Shown: positions 4,091 through 62,160 of the stretch, in pieces
How the letters are laid out: each line of letters starts with the position of its first letter
How positions within the stretch are numbered: the stretch's first letter is position 1
NCBI GenBank assembly: GCA_030684815.1
Contig: JAUXXQ010000199.1
Location: 1 to 62,160, forward strand
Direction of reading: 5' to 3'
Source of the DNA: Methylobacter sp.
Lineage (GTDB): Bacteria > Pseudomonadota > Gammaproteobacteria > Methylococcales > Methylomonadaceae
Length of the DNA stretch: 62,160 nucleotides
Made by a program: the position numbers and the translations under genes
The notes under the pieces: model-generated
Database searches by the model: none
What the model was told of the DNA's origin: nothing
What the model saw: only the letters and a program-made list of their open reading frames with translations

Positions 4091-4894
4091 ATGCCTGATA
4101 AAACCAACTGCCTGTCCATCCTGCAATTATCCGATTTACATATTTTGGCAGTGCCGGAAGACACGATGCTGGGCATTAACACCGAACATTATTTTCATGC
4201 CTGCCTAAAACAGGCGTTTGCTAAAAAACAGCGTTTCGATTTGATCATGCTGACCGGCGACTTGGCACAGGAACCTTGCCTGGCAAGTTACCGGCGCATT
4301 TTAAGCCGCCTTGAAGCCTATCAAACGCCTTGCATCTGTCTGCCCGGCAATCATGATGATTATCAGCTGATGCAACAGGTATTCAACACCGGGCACATTA
4401 ACTGCCAAAAACAGGTGTTGTTAGGTGGCTGGCAACTAATTAGCCTAAATAGCCAGATACCCGGCAAGCCTGGCGGCCGTTTGTCCACTGAGGAATTAGG
4501 GTTTCTTGAACTCAGCTTAAAAGAACATACAGACCGTCATGCGCTTATCGCAAGCCACCATCATTGCCTGGAAACAAAAAGTTCCTGGATGGACACCATG
4601 ATCATAGAAAACAGCGATGAATTATGGGCGATAGTTAAGCGCTATCCGCAAGCAAAAGCCATCACCACCGGCCATATTCATCAGGTCATGGACATTCAAA
4701 ACGCAAATGTCCGGGTATTGGGCGCACCCTCAACCTGCTTTCAATTTGCCCCCGGCAGCAGCGAATTTATGGTGACCGACACTGCACCGGGTTACCGGCT
4801 CATAGACCTGCACGAAGATGGTAGGATTGAATCCGAAGTTATCCGTTTAGACGAGCCGTTAACCGGACTGCAAGACCACGCACATGGGTATTAG
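4091..4894 (+). CDS. cpdA: CpdA-like 3',5'-cyclic AMP phosphodiesterase
   Basis: This is a class III metallophosphoesterase of the CpdA group, which hydrolyses cAMP to AMP in the cytoplasm. The two-metal motifs appear in order: QLSDLHI (D-x-H), TGDLAQ (GD), GNHDD, SHHH and TGHIHQ. At 267 residues it has the usual CpdA size. It starts 8 bases after argA and is probably co-transcribed. A class III nucleotide cyclase is encoded at 29302-31410, so cAMP turnover is plausible in this cell. Related subfamilies have other phosphoester substrates, so the cAMP assignment is by family resemblance. Confidence 0.82.
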   Translation: MPDKTNCLSILQLSDLHILAVPEDTMLGINTEHYFHACLKQAFAKKQRFDLIMLTGDLAQEPCLASYRRILSRLEAYQTPCICLPGNHDDYQLMQQVFNTGHINCQKQVLLGGWQLISLNSQIPGKPGGRLSTEELGFLELSLKEHTDRHALIASHHHCLETKSSWMDTMIIENSDELWAIVKRYPQAKAITTGHIHQVMDIQNANVRVLGAPSTCFQFAPGSSEFMVTDTAPGYRLIDLHEDGRIESEVIRLDEPLTGLQDHAHGY

Positions 4895-56338: not shown

Positions 56339-56938
56339 CTACAGGTGAATGATGATTTGCGGCAGTAAGTCTTCAATAGTCCGGCCAGTGCCGTTTTCGC
56401 CTATCGCGTGCATTTTCCATTCACCGTTATGACGGTACAATTTGGCCATGATTTGTGCGGTATGCGAGCCTTGCGCACTCAGTGTGTAACGCGCCACTTC
56501 GGCATTATTGCTGCTGTCGACGATGCGGCAATAGGCATTGTCAATTTCATCGAAAGTCTCGCCGGAAAAGGAGTTGACGGTAAACACCAATGATTTGACC
56601 GTTTCAGGCACTTTGTCCAGATCAACCTTGATTTGCTCATCGTCGCCGTCACCGGCACCGGTACGGTTGTCGCCGGTATGGACAATACTGCCGTCGCGGC
56701 TTTTTAGTTGGCCAAAATAAATGGTGTCAACCACTTTATTTTGCTCGTTAAACATCACACAAGATGCGTCCAAATCAATGGCGCCGCTTTTACCGCCGCC
56801 GCCAAACAAGCCTTTTAACAGGCCGCCGGAAGGGGCCTGTTTAGCATCCCAGCCCAAACCCATGACGATTTTGCTCAACGTGCCGCCGGACTCTTTGGAC
56901 AGGGAAATTTTTTGCCCTTTTTGTAAGTTTATAGCCAT
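56339..56938 (-). CDS. TerD-family protein, TerX/TerZ-like
   Basis: The 199-residue protein shares the TerD fold: LQKGQKISLSKESGG start, GLGWDAKQ, IDLDASCVMF and the calcium motif [19 protein letters not shown]. It carries a Gly-rich insertion (LLKGLFGGGGKSG, about 39-51) between the first Ca2+-site strands and ends RTIEDLLPQIIIHL. That ending is typical of TerX/TerZ-type rather than the GGL-ending TerD/E. A hairpin terminator upstream may lower its expression relative to the two TerD genes. Confidence 0.88.
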   Translation of the reverse strand: MAINLQKGQKISLSKESGGTLSKIVMGLGWDAKQAPSGGLLKGLFGGGGKSGAIDLDASCVMFNEQNKVVDTIYFGQLKSRDGSIVHTGDNRTGAGDGDDEQIKVDLDKVPETVKSLVFTVNSFSGETFDEIDNAYCRIVDSSNNAEVARYTLSAQGSHTAQIMAKLYRHNGEWKMHAIGENGTGRTIEDLLPQIIIHL

Positions 56939-57011
56939 CTGTATTGCCTCGATAAATAAACCGCGCTGTTCAACGCTGTTTTTCTGCTATGTGGAATATG
57001 TTTGTTCTCTA

Positions 57012-57050
57012 CAAAAAAGATGAAGGGCGGTATTTTTCTTCGCGCCCTTC
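57012..57050 (-). terminator. Intrinsic terminator between terD and the TerX-like gene
   Basis: On the minus strand GAAGGGCG and CGCCCTTC enclose about 13 bases, followed by ATCTTTTTTG. It sits 24 bases after terD and probably reduces readthrough into the downstream Ter genes. Confidence 0.7.
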
Positions 57051-57073
57051 GTGTTCTTTATGGTTAATAATTT

Positions 57074-57649
57074 TTAAACATTGACCCCAAAAGAGGCCGC
57101 TAAAGGCCCAAGCCCACCGGCAAAACCTTGACCGACAGCCTTAAACTTCCACTCAGTGCCGACACGGTAAATCTCACCGAAAATCATCGCGGTTTCAACC
57201 GAGGCATCTTCGCTCAAATCGTAACGGGCAATTTCTGCGCCGCCGTCTTCGTTGCAGATACGGATATAAGCATGGCTGACTTGGCCGAAATTTTGTTTAC
57301 GCGCTTCGGCGTCATGGATAGTCACAGAAAACACGATTTTGTCCAATTCTGCGGGCACTTTGGACAATTCGACCTTGACCACTTCATCATCGCCATCCCC
57401 CGCGCCGGTAAGATTGTCGCCCTGATGCTGAACCGCACCGTCACCGACAACCTTATTATTGTAGAAACAGAAATCGCTGTCTGAGCGGACTTTACCGTCC
57501 ATTTTGACCAAAAATGCGCTGGCATCCAAATCGAATGCGGCGCCATCGGTGGCACGGGCATCCCAGCCTAAGCCCACTGCGATTTTATTCAAGCCGGGGG
57601 CTTCTTTGCTAAGGTTAACGTTGCCGCCTTTGGTAAGTGATACTGCCAT
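57074..57649 (-). CDS. terD: TerD-family calcium-binding stress protein (second copy)
   Basis: At 191 residues it matches TerD/TerE. It shows [56 protein letters not shown] (Ca2+ ligands), [22 protein letters not shown] and [17 protein letters not shown]. It is about as long as, and clearly duplicated from, the gene at 57701. The function is in envelope/phage/tellurite stress by family knowledge; the mechanism is not established. Confidence 0.94.
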
Positions 57650-57700
57650 GATGCTCTCCTGGTGCTTATTAAAATTAATAGTGGATGCCCACTGTTGTTG

Positions 57701-58276
57701 CTAAATATTAATGCCGTATTGGCGCGCCAATGCCGCTAGGCCTCCGGCATAGCCTTGGCCGACCGCCTTAAACTTCCACTCAGTACCGTGTTTGTAAATC
57801 TCGCCGAAAACCATGGCGGTTTCAATCGAGGCATCTTCGCTCAAGTCATAACGGGCAACTTCGGCATTTGAATCCTTGTTGACCACCCGGACATAGGCCT
57901 GCGATACCTGGCCGAAATTCTGTTTACGCACGTCGGCATCATGGATGGTGACGGTAAAAACCACGCGCTGAATATCAGCCGGTATTTTGTCCAGCAGCAC
58001 AATAATCGATTCGTCGTCGCCCTCCCCTTCGCCGGTACGGTTATCGCCGGTATGTTCAATCGAACCGCAGGTGGATTTGGTTTGGTTGTAAAAAATAAAA
58101 TCGCTGTCAGCTCTGACCTTACCGTCTTCTTTGACCATGAATGCACTGGCATCCAGGTCGAAATCGGCGCCATCGGTAGGCCTTGCGTCCCAGCCGAGGC
58201 CAACCAGTATGTTTTTTAACGTGGGATCCGTTTTGGACAGGCTGATGTTACCGCCTTTAGTGAGTGAAACAGCCAT
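57701..58276 (-). CDS. terD: TerD-family calcium-binding stress protein (first gene of the locus)
   Basis: The 191-residue paralogue has the same motifs ([60 protein letters not shown]). It is preceded by GAGGAGA six bases before the ATG. It is the promoter-proximal gene of the Ter cluster and 51 bases separate the two copies. Which corresponds to TerD or TerE cannot be decided by eye. terC, terF and terY are not in the window. Confidence 0.94.
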
Positions 58277-60146: not shown

Positions 60147-61566
60147 ACCCGAAACTGTCTGGATCATTGATGACGACAAATCCATACGCTGGGTGGTGGA
60201 AAAAGCCCTGCAAAAAGCGGACATTATTACCCGCAGCTTTTCCGATGCCGCCAATTTACTCGCCGCCCTGCACAACGACGCGCCCGACGCGCTGATTACC
60301 GACATCCGTATGCCCGGCATGGACGGGCTGGAATTGTTAAGCAAGATCCAATTAAGCTACCCCAGCCTGCCGGTTATTGTGATGACCGCGCATTCGGATT
60401 TGGAGAGCGCGGTTTCGGCGTTCCACGGAGGCGCCTTTGAATACCTGCCCAAACCCTTTGATATTAAAGAGGTCGTTGAGCTTGCCCGTAGAGCCTGCAT
60501 TCACAGCAGACAGCAGCAGATTGAAACAACAACGTCGGAACTCGTACTGGAATCGACACCGGAAATTATCGGCGAAGCGCCGTCAATGCAAGAGGTGTTC
60601 CGCGCCATAGGGCGATTGGCGAGGTCGCACATCACCGTACTGATCAACGGCGAATCGGGCACCGGCAAAGAATTGGTCGCCAAAGCCCTGCACCGGCACA
60701 GCCCCCGCGCCGCCAAGCCGTTCATCGCACTGAACATGGCCGCCATCCCCAAAGACCTGATGGAATCGGAACTGTTCGGCCACGAAAAAGGCGCCTTTAC
60801 CGGCGCACAAGCACGCCGCGCCGGACGCTTTGAACAAGCCGACCGCGGCACCCTGTTCCTGGATGAAATCGGCGACATGCCCGCCGAACTGCAAACCCGT
60901 TTATTGCGGGTACTGGCCGATGGCGAGTTTTATCCGGTCGGCTCCTACACCTCGGTTAAAGTCGATGTGAGGATTATTGCCGCCACCCATCAGAACCTTG
61001 AATCACTGGTAGAACAAGGCCGTTTTCGGGAAGATTTGTTCCATCGCTTAAACGTCATCCGCATCCATATCCCGCCCCTGCGCGAGCGCAAACAAGATGT
61101 CCCCTTGCTATTGCGCCACTTTCTAAACCAGGCCGCTATTGAATTGAACAGTGAAATAAAAATCCTAAAACCCGAAGCGGAGGCTTTTTTAAGCACATTG
61201 GATTGGCCGGGCAATGTGCGGCAACTGGAAAACTGCTGCCGCTGGCTGACCGTAATGGCCTCGGGGCGGGAAGTTCATCTGCACGACTTGCCACCCGAAT
61301 TGCTGGGGTCCACGTCAGAAAAAAACGCGGCTGAAGCCGACTGGGAAACCTTACTGAGAAACTGGATAGACCAACAACTGTTGTTGCATTCACTTGGCGG
61401 GCATGAAAATGAAGGTGAAATCGCCAAACATATCATTCCCGCCGTTGAGACCATTTTAATTAAAGCGGCATTAAACTTTACCCACGGCAAACGCCATGAA
61501 GCCGCCATTTTATTAGGTTACGGAAGAAATACCCTGACGCGGAAGATCCAGGAACTAGGTATATGA
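60139..61566 (+). CDS. ntrC: Nitrogen regulation response regulator NtrC
   Basis: NtrC is a sigma-54 activator. The 475-residue protein has a receiver domain (phospho-acceptor Asp55 in LITDIRMPGMDGLEL) and an AAA+ domain with Walker A GESGTGKE (171-178) and the sigma-54-contact loop GAFTGA (218-223). The C-terminal Fis-type HTH ends AILLGYGRNTLTRKIQELGI. GAGGAG precedes ATG 60139, which overlaps the ntrB stop. No terminator follows within 50 bases; two small-RNA genes lie downstream. Confidence 0.96.
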   Translation: MTKPETVWIIDDDKSIRWVVEKALQKADIITRSFSDAANLLAALHNDAPDALITDIRMPGMDGLELLSKIQLSYPSLPVIVMTAHSDLESAVSAFHGGAFEYLPKPFDIKEVVELARRACIHSRQQQIETTTSELVLESTPEIIGEAPSMQEVFRAIGRLARSHITVLINGESGTGKELVAKALHRHSPRAAKPFIALNMAAIPKDLMESELFGHEKGAFTGAQARRAGRFEQADRGTLFLDEIGDMPAELQTRLLRVLADGEFYPVGSYTSVKVDVRIIAATHQNLESLVEQGRFREDLFHRLNVIRIHIPPLRERKQDVPLLLRHFLNQAAIELNSEIKILKPEAEAFLSTLDWPGNVRQLENCCRWLTVMASGREVHLHDLPPELLGSTSEKNAAEADWETLLRNWIDQQLLLHSLGGHENEGEIAKHIIPAVETILIKAALNFTHGKRHEAAILLGYGRNTLTRKIQELGI

Positions 61567-61616
61567 CCCGCTAAAAACGACTCTCACAAAGTGCACCAAA
61601 TAACCTACTGAAACAC

Positions 61617-61637
61617 TGCGACAATATGCCACATTCC
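61617..61637. promoter_or_regulatory. Palindromic box upstream of sRNA 1
   Basis: TGCGACAATATGCCACATTCC contains the imperfect palindrome TGYGRCA-N3-TGYCRCA. It recurs before sRNA 2 and after it. It ends about 20 bases before the -10 element. Confidence 0.6.
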
Positions 61638-61667
61638 ATCATCTACGTATTTTTACTAATATATAGG

Positions 61668-61741
61668 CAACTCTTGAGATGCAAATTTCCTCCTCGAAAT
61701 TCAGAGTTTTTTAATGCGGCCTAATCAGCCGCATTTTTTTT
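61668..61741 (+). ncRNA. Candidate sRNA 1 (tandem sibling pair behind ntrC)
   Basis: A -10 element TAATAT (61657-61662) predicts a start near 61668. The RNA begins with a CAACTCTTGAGATGC segment and contains the pyrimidine-rich, anti-Shine-Dalgarno-like AAATTTCCTCC. It ends in an intrinsic terminator, TGCGGC/GCCGCA with loop CTAATCA, followed by eight T. It carries no plausible reading frame. The sibling 165 bases downstream preserves the 5' segment, pyrimidine tract and terminator but varies between them. Confidence 0.7.
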
Positions 61742-61766
61742 GCCTGCAAAATGACCTTGACCATAC

Positions 61767-61802
61767 TGCGACATTCTGACACGCGGCAATTTGCCACATT
61801 CC
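61767..61802. promoter_or_regulatory. Double palindromic box upstream of sRNA 2
   Basis: TGCGACATTCTGACA is followed directly by CGCGGCAATTTGCCACATT. Both halves fit TGYGRCA-N3-TGNCRCA, the second closely (GGCAATTTGCC core). Confidence 0.6.
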
Positions 61803-61832
61803 ATTATTCAAGCCTCACAGTTAATATACTTG

Positions 61833-61915
61833 CAACTCTTGAGATGCAAACTTCCTTCTAGGAATTCAGAGCGTTATATCCTTCTCTAATGCGGCCAACT
61901 GGCCGCATTTTTTTT
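61833..61915 (+). ncRNA. Candidate sRNA 2 (sibling of sRNA 1)
   Basis: The same TAATAT -10 (61822-61827), the same 5' segment CAACTCTTGAGATGCAAA, a changed pyrimidine tract ACTTCCTTCT, and terminator GCGGCC/GGCCGC with loop AACT followed by eight T. It is about 9 bases longer than sRNA 1. Terminator arms differ from sRNA 1 with compensating changes, which supports RNA-level selection. Confidence 0.7.
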
Positions 61916-61939: not shown

Positions 61940-61974
61940 TGCGGCATTCTGACATGCGGCAATTGCCACATTCC
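61940..61974. promoter_or_regulatory. Third copy of the double palindromic box
   Basis: TGCGGCATTCTGACA followed by TGCGGCAATTGCCACATT (perfect GGCAATTGCC core). The surrounding 75 bases nearly repeat those before sRNA 2, but no third sRNA follows. A transposase-like frame ends 55 bases away. Confidence 0.55.
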
Positions 61975-62028
61975 ATTATTCAAATCTCACGCCTACGTCG
62001 TGACTAGAATGCTATAAGTATATAGGAC

Positions 62029-62160
62029 TTACGCATTGACGGAATGCCTAAATTGTGGATTGAGATTTTTTATTTCAGGCATGAGTGTCGCGATAGAATT
62101 TGCTACCACAGTATTAAATAACTCACGCTGGAGCTCGTAACAGTTACTGATAAGCTCAGC
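62029..62160 (-). CDS. C-terminal end of a probable IS transposase, cut by window edge
   Basis: The open frame covers 43 residues plus stop from the window edge (ELQRELFNTVVANSIATL, NLNPQFRHSVNA). Its stop codon lies inside TATAGGACTTACGCA, which looks like an insertion-sequence terminal repeat next to a TA dinucleotide. I do not recognise the IS family. A genuine non-mobile gene is possible. Confidence 0.45.
   Translation of the reverse strand, partial: AELISNCYELQRELFNTVVANSIATLMPEIKNLNPQFRHSVNA

Follow-up and report, generated by a model that had tools for sequence, protein, structure and literature searches.

Tandem sRNA genes behind ntrC in Methylobacter belong to a multicopy RNA family whose promoter box probably points to a RegB/RegA-type system

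The window, which is the whole of a 62160-base contig from the 4.29-Mb, 235-contig genome of a Methylobacter sp., carries near its end ntrB, ntrC, a pair of cassettes at 165-bp spacing and a third box, in that order, before the contig stops at 62160. The gene immediately upstream of the cassettes is ntrC (TIGR01818, 722.6 bits against a cut-off of 558.6), as the initial annotation had it. The features are as follows.

61617..61635, + strand: putative single RegA-type box, copy 1 (TGCGACAATATGCCACATT); matches the conserved pattern exactly
61657..61662, + strand: -10-like TAATAT of copy 1, by sequence; TA..ATA is conserved in the alignment
61668..61741, + strand: predicted sRNA copy 1, 74 nt, lacking TATATCCTTCT; covariance model 80.3 bits, E 1.5e-14
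61713..61735, + strand: intrinsic terminator of copy 1; found by scan, consensus helix 3 with both-side changes in 7/8 pairs
61767..61800, + strand: putative double RegA-type box of copy 2; pattern and consensus match
61822..61827, + strand: -10-like TAATAT of copy 2, by sequence
61833..61915, + strand: predicted sRNA copy 2, 83 nt; covariance model 101.1 bits, E 3.2e-19
61836..61871, + strand: 5' stem-loop of copy 2; outer stem 61836-61839/61868-61871, inner stem 61852-61855/61861-61864
61874..61885, + strand: unpaired pyrimidine tract TTATATCCTTCT of copy 2, candidate pairing seed; not in copy 1
61888..61909, + strand: intrinsic terminator of copy 2; found by scan, with consensus pair changes
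61940..61972, + strand: third box with no RNA body behind it, a remnant or interrupted copy; partial repeat of the box region at 61963

A repeated cassette of 165-bp periodicity, composed of box, -10 element, RNA body and terminator, had been proposed from the letters, and both its coordinates and its anatomy hold. Two 57-nt direct repeats, starting at 61657 and 61822, are 82% identical at a spacing of 165, and the 18-mer CAACTCTTGAGATGCAAA is found exactly at 61668 and 61833 and at no other site of the window with up to three mismatches (0.04 expected). A terminator scan of the window recovered both cassette terminators (two found versus a shuffle mean of 0.7); their arms differ in sequence with pairing kept, which agrees with the earlier observation. 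TAATAT ends 6 nt upstream of each RNA start. A promoter scan of the + strand found no sigma-70 site with both hexamers, consistent with a promoter that has no -35 element. The anti-Shine-Dalgarno-like pyrimidine tract that had been ascribed to the cassettes is present in copy 2 and in 70 of the 94 matched RNAs described below (as ATCCTTC, or AUCCUUC in the RNA), and is absent from copy 1, which lacks a stretch that most relatives have.

Two further regions of the window were recorded. Positions 62025-62160, from GGACTTACGCA to the contig end, hold a 43-aa frame on the - strand and interrupt or follow the third cassette; they look like an insertion-sequence end, and a Pfam search of this region gave no match. 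Three adjacent TerD-like stress proteins are encoded on the - strand at 56339-58276 (by eye), and the one of the three that was tested had no NCBIfam match at 1e-20.

The two cassettes, siblings whose predicted sRNAs measure 74 and 83 nt, are members of a genuine RNA family, found in one family of Methylococcales. With a single copy as query and a threshold of E 0.01, 113 of 151 genomes of the bacterial family gave matches, in some cases to the box or terminator only. A covariance model was built from 18 sequences, copy 2 of the window among them, and returned 94 matches in 66 of 70 sources, which had been picked from single-copy-query matches and later box loci. In a sample of the order, the same model matched 70 of 151 genomes at E 0.001, and every one of them belongs to the window's family. 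The exact core is present in 52 named stretches, again all Methylococcales (Methylobacter, Methylovulum, Crenothrix, and uncultured Methylococcaceae and Methylococcales). The initial annotation had suggested a multicopy sRNA with a conserved box and a covariance search in relatives as a check; the search bears the suggestion out, as stems and boxes are conserved and the box precedes 93 of the 94 RNAs.

In the model-guided alignment, which leans towards its own structure, both-side changes affect 14 of 18 base pairs and 92.9% of cells are paired; RNA alignment A1 omits one match (L088:3711). Covariation is 0.203 versus 0.114 in shuffled alignments (0 of 500 reach it) and 0.015-0.067 when slid. 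Both-side changes occur in three of the six pairs of consensus helix 1 and all four of helix 2, adding to those of the terminator helix, and one compensated stem across relatives reads CAACTC..GAGTT versus CAATTC..GAATT. Part of the case for the 5' stem comes from the model: the alignment follows the structure it was fitted to, and RNAalifold, applied to a sequence-only alignment, recovered just the terminator. The outer 5' stem is missing from the lowest-energy fold of copy 2 and present in that of copy 1, and 5' parts folded alone are no better than shuffles. A small ORF within the RNA was considered and dropped, since indels of one base, seen by eye between copies, disrupt its conserved ATG frame.

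Searches of Rfam gave no sRNA family at gathering score in the window and nothing over threshold except tRNA and group II intron in 19 other box stretches; the best sub-threshold hits were ncS025 (19.9 of 46 bits) and RyhB (19.3 of 55 bits). No earlier account of these RNAs was found in Rfam or in the literature searched, which covered few subscription journals. By eye, four sRNA types with a common box occur in the window's family. The second sRNA-like type, CTAACTTTT..GAAAGTTGCGTTATTCTTCC..terminator, lies divergent from regB at L134 4615-4780 (G000:C37) and recurs in many genomes of the family, with regB not always adjacent. Two more box-driven sRNA-like cassettes in the window's genome, L135 826-1000 and L136 612-780, give weak model matches (E 0.0003 and 0.008, respectively). 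The - strand of L135 also holds a group II intron D1-D4-7 at 4745-4880 (RF02012, 97.1 bits).

The location behind ntrC raises the possibility of an NrsZ-like, nitrogen-controlled sRNA transcribed by NtrC and sigma-54, and a tie to nitrogen status had been suggested as possible on similar grounds. We examined 61 stretches, comprising 60 loci and the window. The nearest upstream neighbour of the RNA is ntrC in nine of them, all belonging to the genus of the window, where they make up 9 of 14 stretches and come from 9 of 11 genomes, and in none of the 47 stretches from other genera, which argues against such control. More common is the pair pdxA and ksgA (TIGR00557 and TIGR00755), found together in 30 of 61 stretches, with the RNA directly behind ksgA in 27. 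Sites were sought with the commonly known patterns for sigma-54 and NtrC. There is no GG-N10-GC on the + strand of 61566-61835 and one on the - strand at 61745; the best NtrC match agrees at 12 of 17 positions, five of them N, versus a shuffled mean of 12.24. The initial annotation was right that no -24/-12 promoter is visible and that the sequences are unlike NrsZ. Pseudomonas NrsZ is itself transcribed from the ntrC intergenic region (PMC8395346), and together with the recurrence of ntrC upstream in the window's genus this speaks for a nitrogen-controlled RNA, a reading we regard as very improbable. As judged from sites and neighbourhoods, a nitrogen link of the twin sRNAs is not supported.

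What precedes the RNAs consistently is the box, a 19-bp site resembling YGCGRCA-N3-TGNCRCATT. The single RNA scored without one has lost its promoter at a contig end, and the box is doubled before 56 of the 94 RNAs, as in copy 2. The matrix was built from these same copies, and 71 of 20000 random 90-mers reach the score. In 91 of 93 cases the box ends 31-33 nt before the RNA start, so its centre falls near -42, where a bound activator could replace a -35 element. The boxes of copies 1 and 2 fit the RegR consensus GNGRCRTTNNGNCGC, taken from PMC5506826, at 13-14 of 15 positions (13 for copy 1, or 14 on the other strand) and the RegA consensus SSGNVRDNHYSNCSS at 14 of 15, both being degenerate enough that 64 of 124292 window positions reach 13/15 for RegR and 562 reach 14/15 for RegA. 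Exact boxes number 49 in 16 genomes of the genus versus two reversed-pattern controls, and in the window's genome all five precede sRNA-like cassettes. Across the order, the box is present in 71 of 81 genomes with two control matches altogether; outside it, a stricter pattern occurs in 10 of 227 genomes with none.

The association of boxes with sRNA-like cassettes extends past the reach of the covariance model. In families without model-detected RNA, tandem boxes 166-217 bp apart occur in 8 of 41 genomes among the matches listed. Many boxes of other families are followed by a -10 element, a body, a CCUCCUCUU-like tract and a terminator; a terminator stands behind 25 of 34 boxes, and CCTCC lies 55-150 nt downstream of 24 of 34 versus 275 of 3000 random places. 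In 80 stretches taken for boxes or RegA, a terminator is found 60-190 nt downstream of 64 of 84 boxes (207 of 3000 random places), and 56 of the 84 also have a pyrimidine tract ahead of it (50 of 3000), counted with a pattern that was widened after misses were seen. The 20 boxes without a rule-detected terminator include some with evident terminators by eye (L231-L233, L287, L289, L291), and others that lie within hairpins or ahead of protein genes. The hairpins, AGGCAATGCGACA..TGCCACATTGCCT in L138, L139, L147 and L150, sit between protein genes, are terminator-like and mimic the box, and their boxes enter the count of 84 where the score was reached. A few boxes precede protein genes (L243, L244, L245). 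In f7 genomes, a box is also ahead of a secreted protein on the - strand (L244 1668 and L245 1602), and the one f7 secreted protein tested gave a weak TonB-receptor plug match (E 0.002, under cut-off). Outside the order, three of six stretches inspected have the box ahead of TonB-receptor-like genes (L266, L268, L269; by eye).

RegB/RegA is a well-studied global redox system, and the window's genome encodes a RegB-like kinase of 460 aa and a RegA-like regulator of 182 aa, beside which a box and a further sRNA-like cassette run divergently. We use the names RegA-like and RegB-like because the best NCBIfam models, ActR/PrrA/RegA and ActS/PrrB/RegB, are both below their equivalog cut-offs (188.6 of 250 and 200.4 of 350 bits, respectively). 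The regulator has PF00072 and PF02954 within its 182 aa, the layout of a receiver and a Fis-type HTH in ∼180 aa. It has the phospho-acceptor Asp59, and the kinase has the quinone motif GGASNPI at 99 and, for its His box, His242; Asp59, GGASNPI and His239 are described for Methylomonas RegA/RegB (PMC13274454). The DNA-binding end aligns with that of PrrA (1umq), and the stretch LNMHRRTLQR is identical.

Box and regulator are associated in both position and occurrence. In the genus, the box is 1.47-1.67 kb from the best ActR/PrrA/RegA match in 12 of 16 genomes (by eye). Because a loose threshold was also positive in 12 of 14 control genomes, only top RegA matches were used, later those at E 1e-30, where one of 14 control genomes is positive. 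By this measure, RegA is found in 47 of 48 box-positive genomes of other families versus 4 of 10 box-negative genomes (Fisher 3.4e-5) and, among complete genomes, in 40 of 40 versus 1 of 6 (Fisher 4.4e-6), values that overstate independence because the genomes are related. Within the window's family, the box is near regB at 9 of 20 RegA loci, within the fetched stretch. In other families, it is near regA in 22 of 40 box-positive genomes with a RegA row, among the matches listed, which cover 41 of the 48 genomes (G212, with no RegA row, is left out). Similarly, regB adjoins the box in 13 of 20 other-family stretches fetched for boxes, or 11 of 18 in a blind count that omits L238 and L239, which were picked knowing that RegA was nearby. 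One genome, G006, is 98% complete and has the RNA and no RegA at 1e-30.

These patterns, read from sequence, indicate that the promoter box probably points to a RegB/RegA-type redox two-component system instead of nitrogen control. A different regulator could bind the box, the sites merely occupying the same intergenic region as regB. Retention of RegA in 4 of the 10 box-negative genomes would fit this, as would the f7 and f3 genomes, which, among the matches listed, have no box near regA except in G187. We nevertheless consider another regulator unlikely, because box and RegA are missing jointly from two f8 genomes, three f6 genomes and G216 of f4, that is, in three families, because the box fits both the RegA and RegR consensus, and because the recognition stretch is common to the regulator and PrrA. 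The boxes ahead of TonB-receptor-like genes outside the order also argue for RegA, since in Methylomonas a TonB-receptor gene depends on RegA, without direct binding (PMC13274454).

Building on the computed RNA family, its structure, the box, its spacing and its link to regB and regA, we infer transcription, activation by RegA, anti-Shine-Dalgarno action and the signal as follows. It is likely, in our judgment, that RegB/RegA drives a battery of multicopy sRNAs whose pyrimidine tracts mask Shine-Dalgarno sites. An over-reduced quinone pool or NADH would activate RegB, and phosphorylated RegA would bind the boxes so that several sRNAs rise together. Each copy would have its own promoter, with the RegB/RegA-type regulator at about -42, in the place of a -35 element, probably activating transcription. 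The predicted fold of the RNA has a stem-loop at the 5' end and a terminator hairpin, leaving the pyrimidine tract UAUCCUUCU free. A further segment that may be free is CCUCC, which about half of the copies carry in the 5' loop region (it is within the first 45 nt of 49 of the 94 matched RNAs). The free tract would most likely pair with Shine-Dalgarno regions and prevent a group of mRNAs from being translated. Outside the window's family, the terminator-proximal tract often reads CCUCCUCUU, nearly the anti-Shine-Dalgarno sequence itself. Silencing by these RNAs, and their choice of targets, are inferred. Since the RNAs are multicopy and probably driven by a two-component system, and C/U-rich tracts could bind a protein, they might instead titrate a protein in the manner of RsmY/RsmZ or otherwise act by protein binding. 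This is quite improbable given that GGA occurs not at all in copy 1 and once in copy 2, that the tracts are anti-Shine-Dalgarno-like, and that CCTCC follows other-family boxes far above the random rate given above.

The target prediction that had been recommended gave a single recurrent gene, exbB, which failed its control. In 11 genomes of the genus, AGAAGGATA(N2-9)ATG occurs at 26 places in nine genomes, and only exbB of the tonB-exbB operon recurs (7 of 11 genomes). We rejected it because what the motif captures is the 3' end of tonB (..EG stop), where it overlaps the Shine-Dalgarno of exbB, because many distant homologues also retain GAAGGATA, and because the sign is wrong for a repressor, tonB expression dropping in a Methylomonas regA deletion (PMC13274454). 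FeoB was located in all eight genomes searched, and no box at score 20 was found around it in short stretches that probably stop before the feo promoter.

Tentatively, and with slightly more doubt than confidence, we propose that the conserved core of the RegB/RegA regulon in Methylococcales is a battery of sRNAs rather than enzymes. It would have been ancestrally divergent from regB and repeatedly duplicated to new sites, and would relay redox state mainly in translation through anti-Shine-Dalgarno RNAs, the intermediates of the indirect effects of RegA in methanotrophs. In an Acidithiobacillus study, RegA sites were too degenerate for motif derivation (PMC5506826). Here, a sharp, almost invariant site is kept across an order, and most sites examined precede sRNA-like cassettes. 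The box and sRNA set may offer a read-out of RegA activity in methanotrophs, and the twin sRNAs are natural tandem duplicates with changing seeds.

Known systems offer close comparisons. The Rhodobacter sphaeroides sRNAs PcrZ and PcrX are under PrrA, the counterpart of RegA (PMC8307010), and resemble the twin sRNAs in having a RegA-type regulator, which for the latter is predicted. They differ in being controlled also by FnrL and AppA-PpsR and in having photosynthesis targets, and PcrX is cut from a 3' UTR (PMC8307010). The available part of that paper describes no tandem copies beside a kinase gene; PcrZ and PcrX are set apart here by description, not by sequence.

Sibling or repeated-motif sRNAs are likewise found elsewhere, and CcsR RNAs carry a CCUCC motif. 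CcsR1-4 and the cuckoo / alpha-r14 RNAs (NfeR1) of Alphaproteobacteria are of this kind (PMC8307010, PMC10746234), and silencing through anti-Shine-Dalgarno motifs was tested for NfeR1 (PMC10746234). As described, the CcsR RNAs are processed from one ccaF1 transcript, whereas each twin sRNA has its own putative RegA-type promoter and terminator. NfeR1 has three hairpins, each with CCUCCUCCC; the twin sRNAs have two, and CCUCCUCCC is absent from copies 1 and 2, which places them outside cuckoo / alpha-r14. NrsZ, like the twin sRNAs, lies behind ntrC, but at ∼226 nt it depends on NtrB/C and RpoN (PMC8395346), and neither its sigma-54 promoter nor a sign of NtrC control was seen here. RsmY/RsmZ resemble the present case in that a two-component system acts through several sibling RNAs, yet their regulators are not of the RegA type, and Rsm RNAs titrate proteins by GGA motifs, multiple copies of which the twin sRNAs lack. 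Qrr RNAs also serve a two-component system through several siblings, again under a regulator other than RegA.

Methylomonas, which we take to belong to the same bacterial order as the window's organism, provides a comparison at the level of the regulator. RegB/RegA of Methylomonas sp. DH-1, whose redox-dependent phosphorylation has been studied, is of the same type, with Asp59 and GGASNPI common to both (PMC13274454). That 2026 paper gives 56 candidate RegA targets, with direct binding at the feo promoter and not at tbdr or tonB; the targets treated are protein-coding, feo direct and tonB and tbdr indirect, and the terms sRNA, small RNA and noncoding have zero occurrences in its available text (PMC13274454). 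It states that the intermediary factors of indirect RegA regulation remain to be identified, and we propose the twin sRNAs, as a suggestion only, as candidates for this role (PMC13274454). No RegA-driven sRNA of methanotrophs was found in the literature searched, few subscription journals being covered. The kind is already known, because PrrA-controlled sRNAs exist in Rhodobacter (PMC8307010), whereas a multicopy set of sRNAs linked to regB order-wide is, as far as we know, a new form of it.
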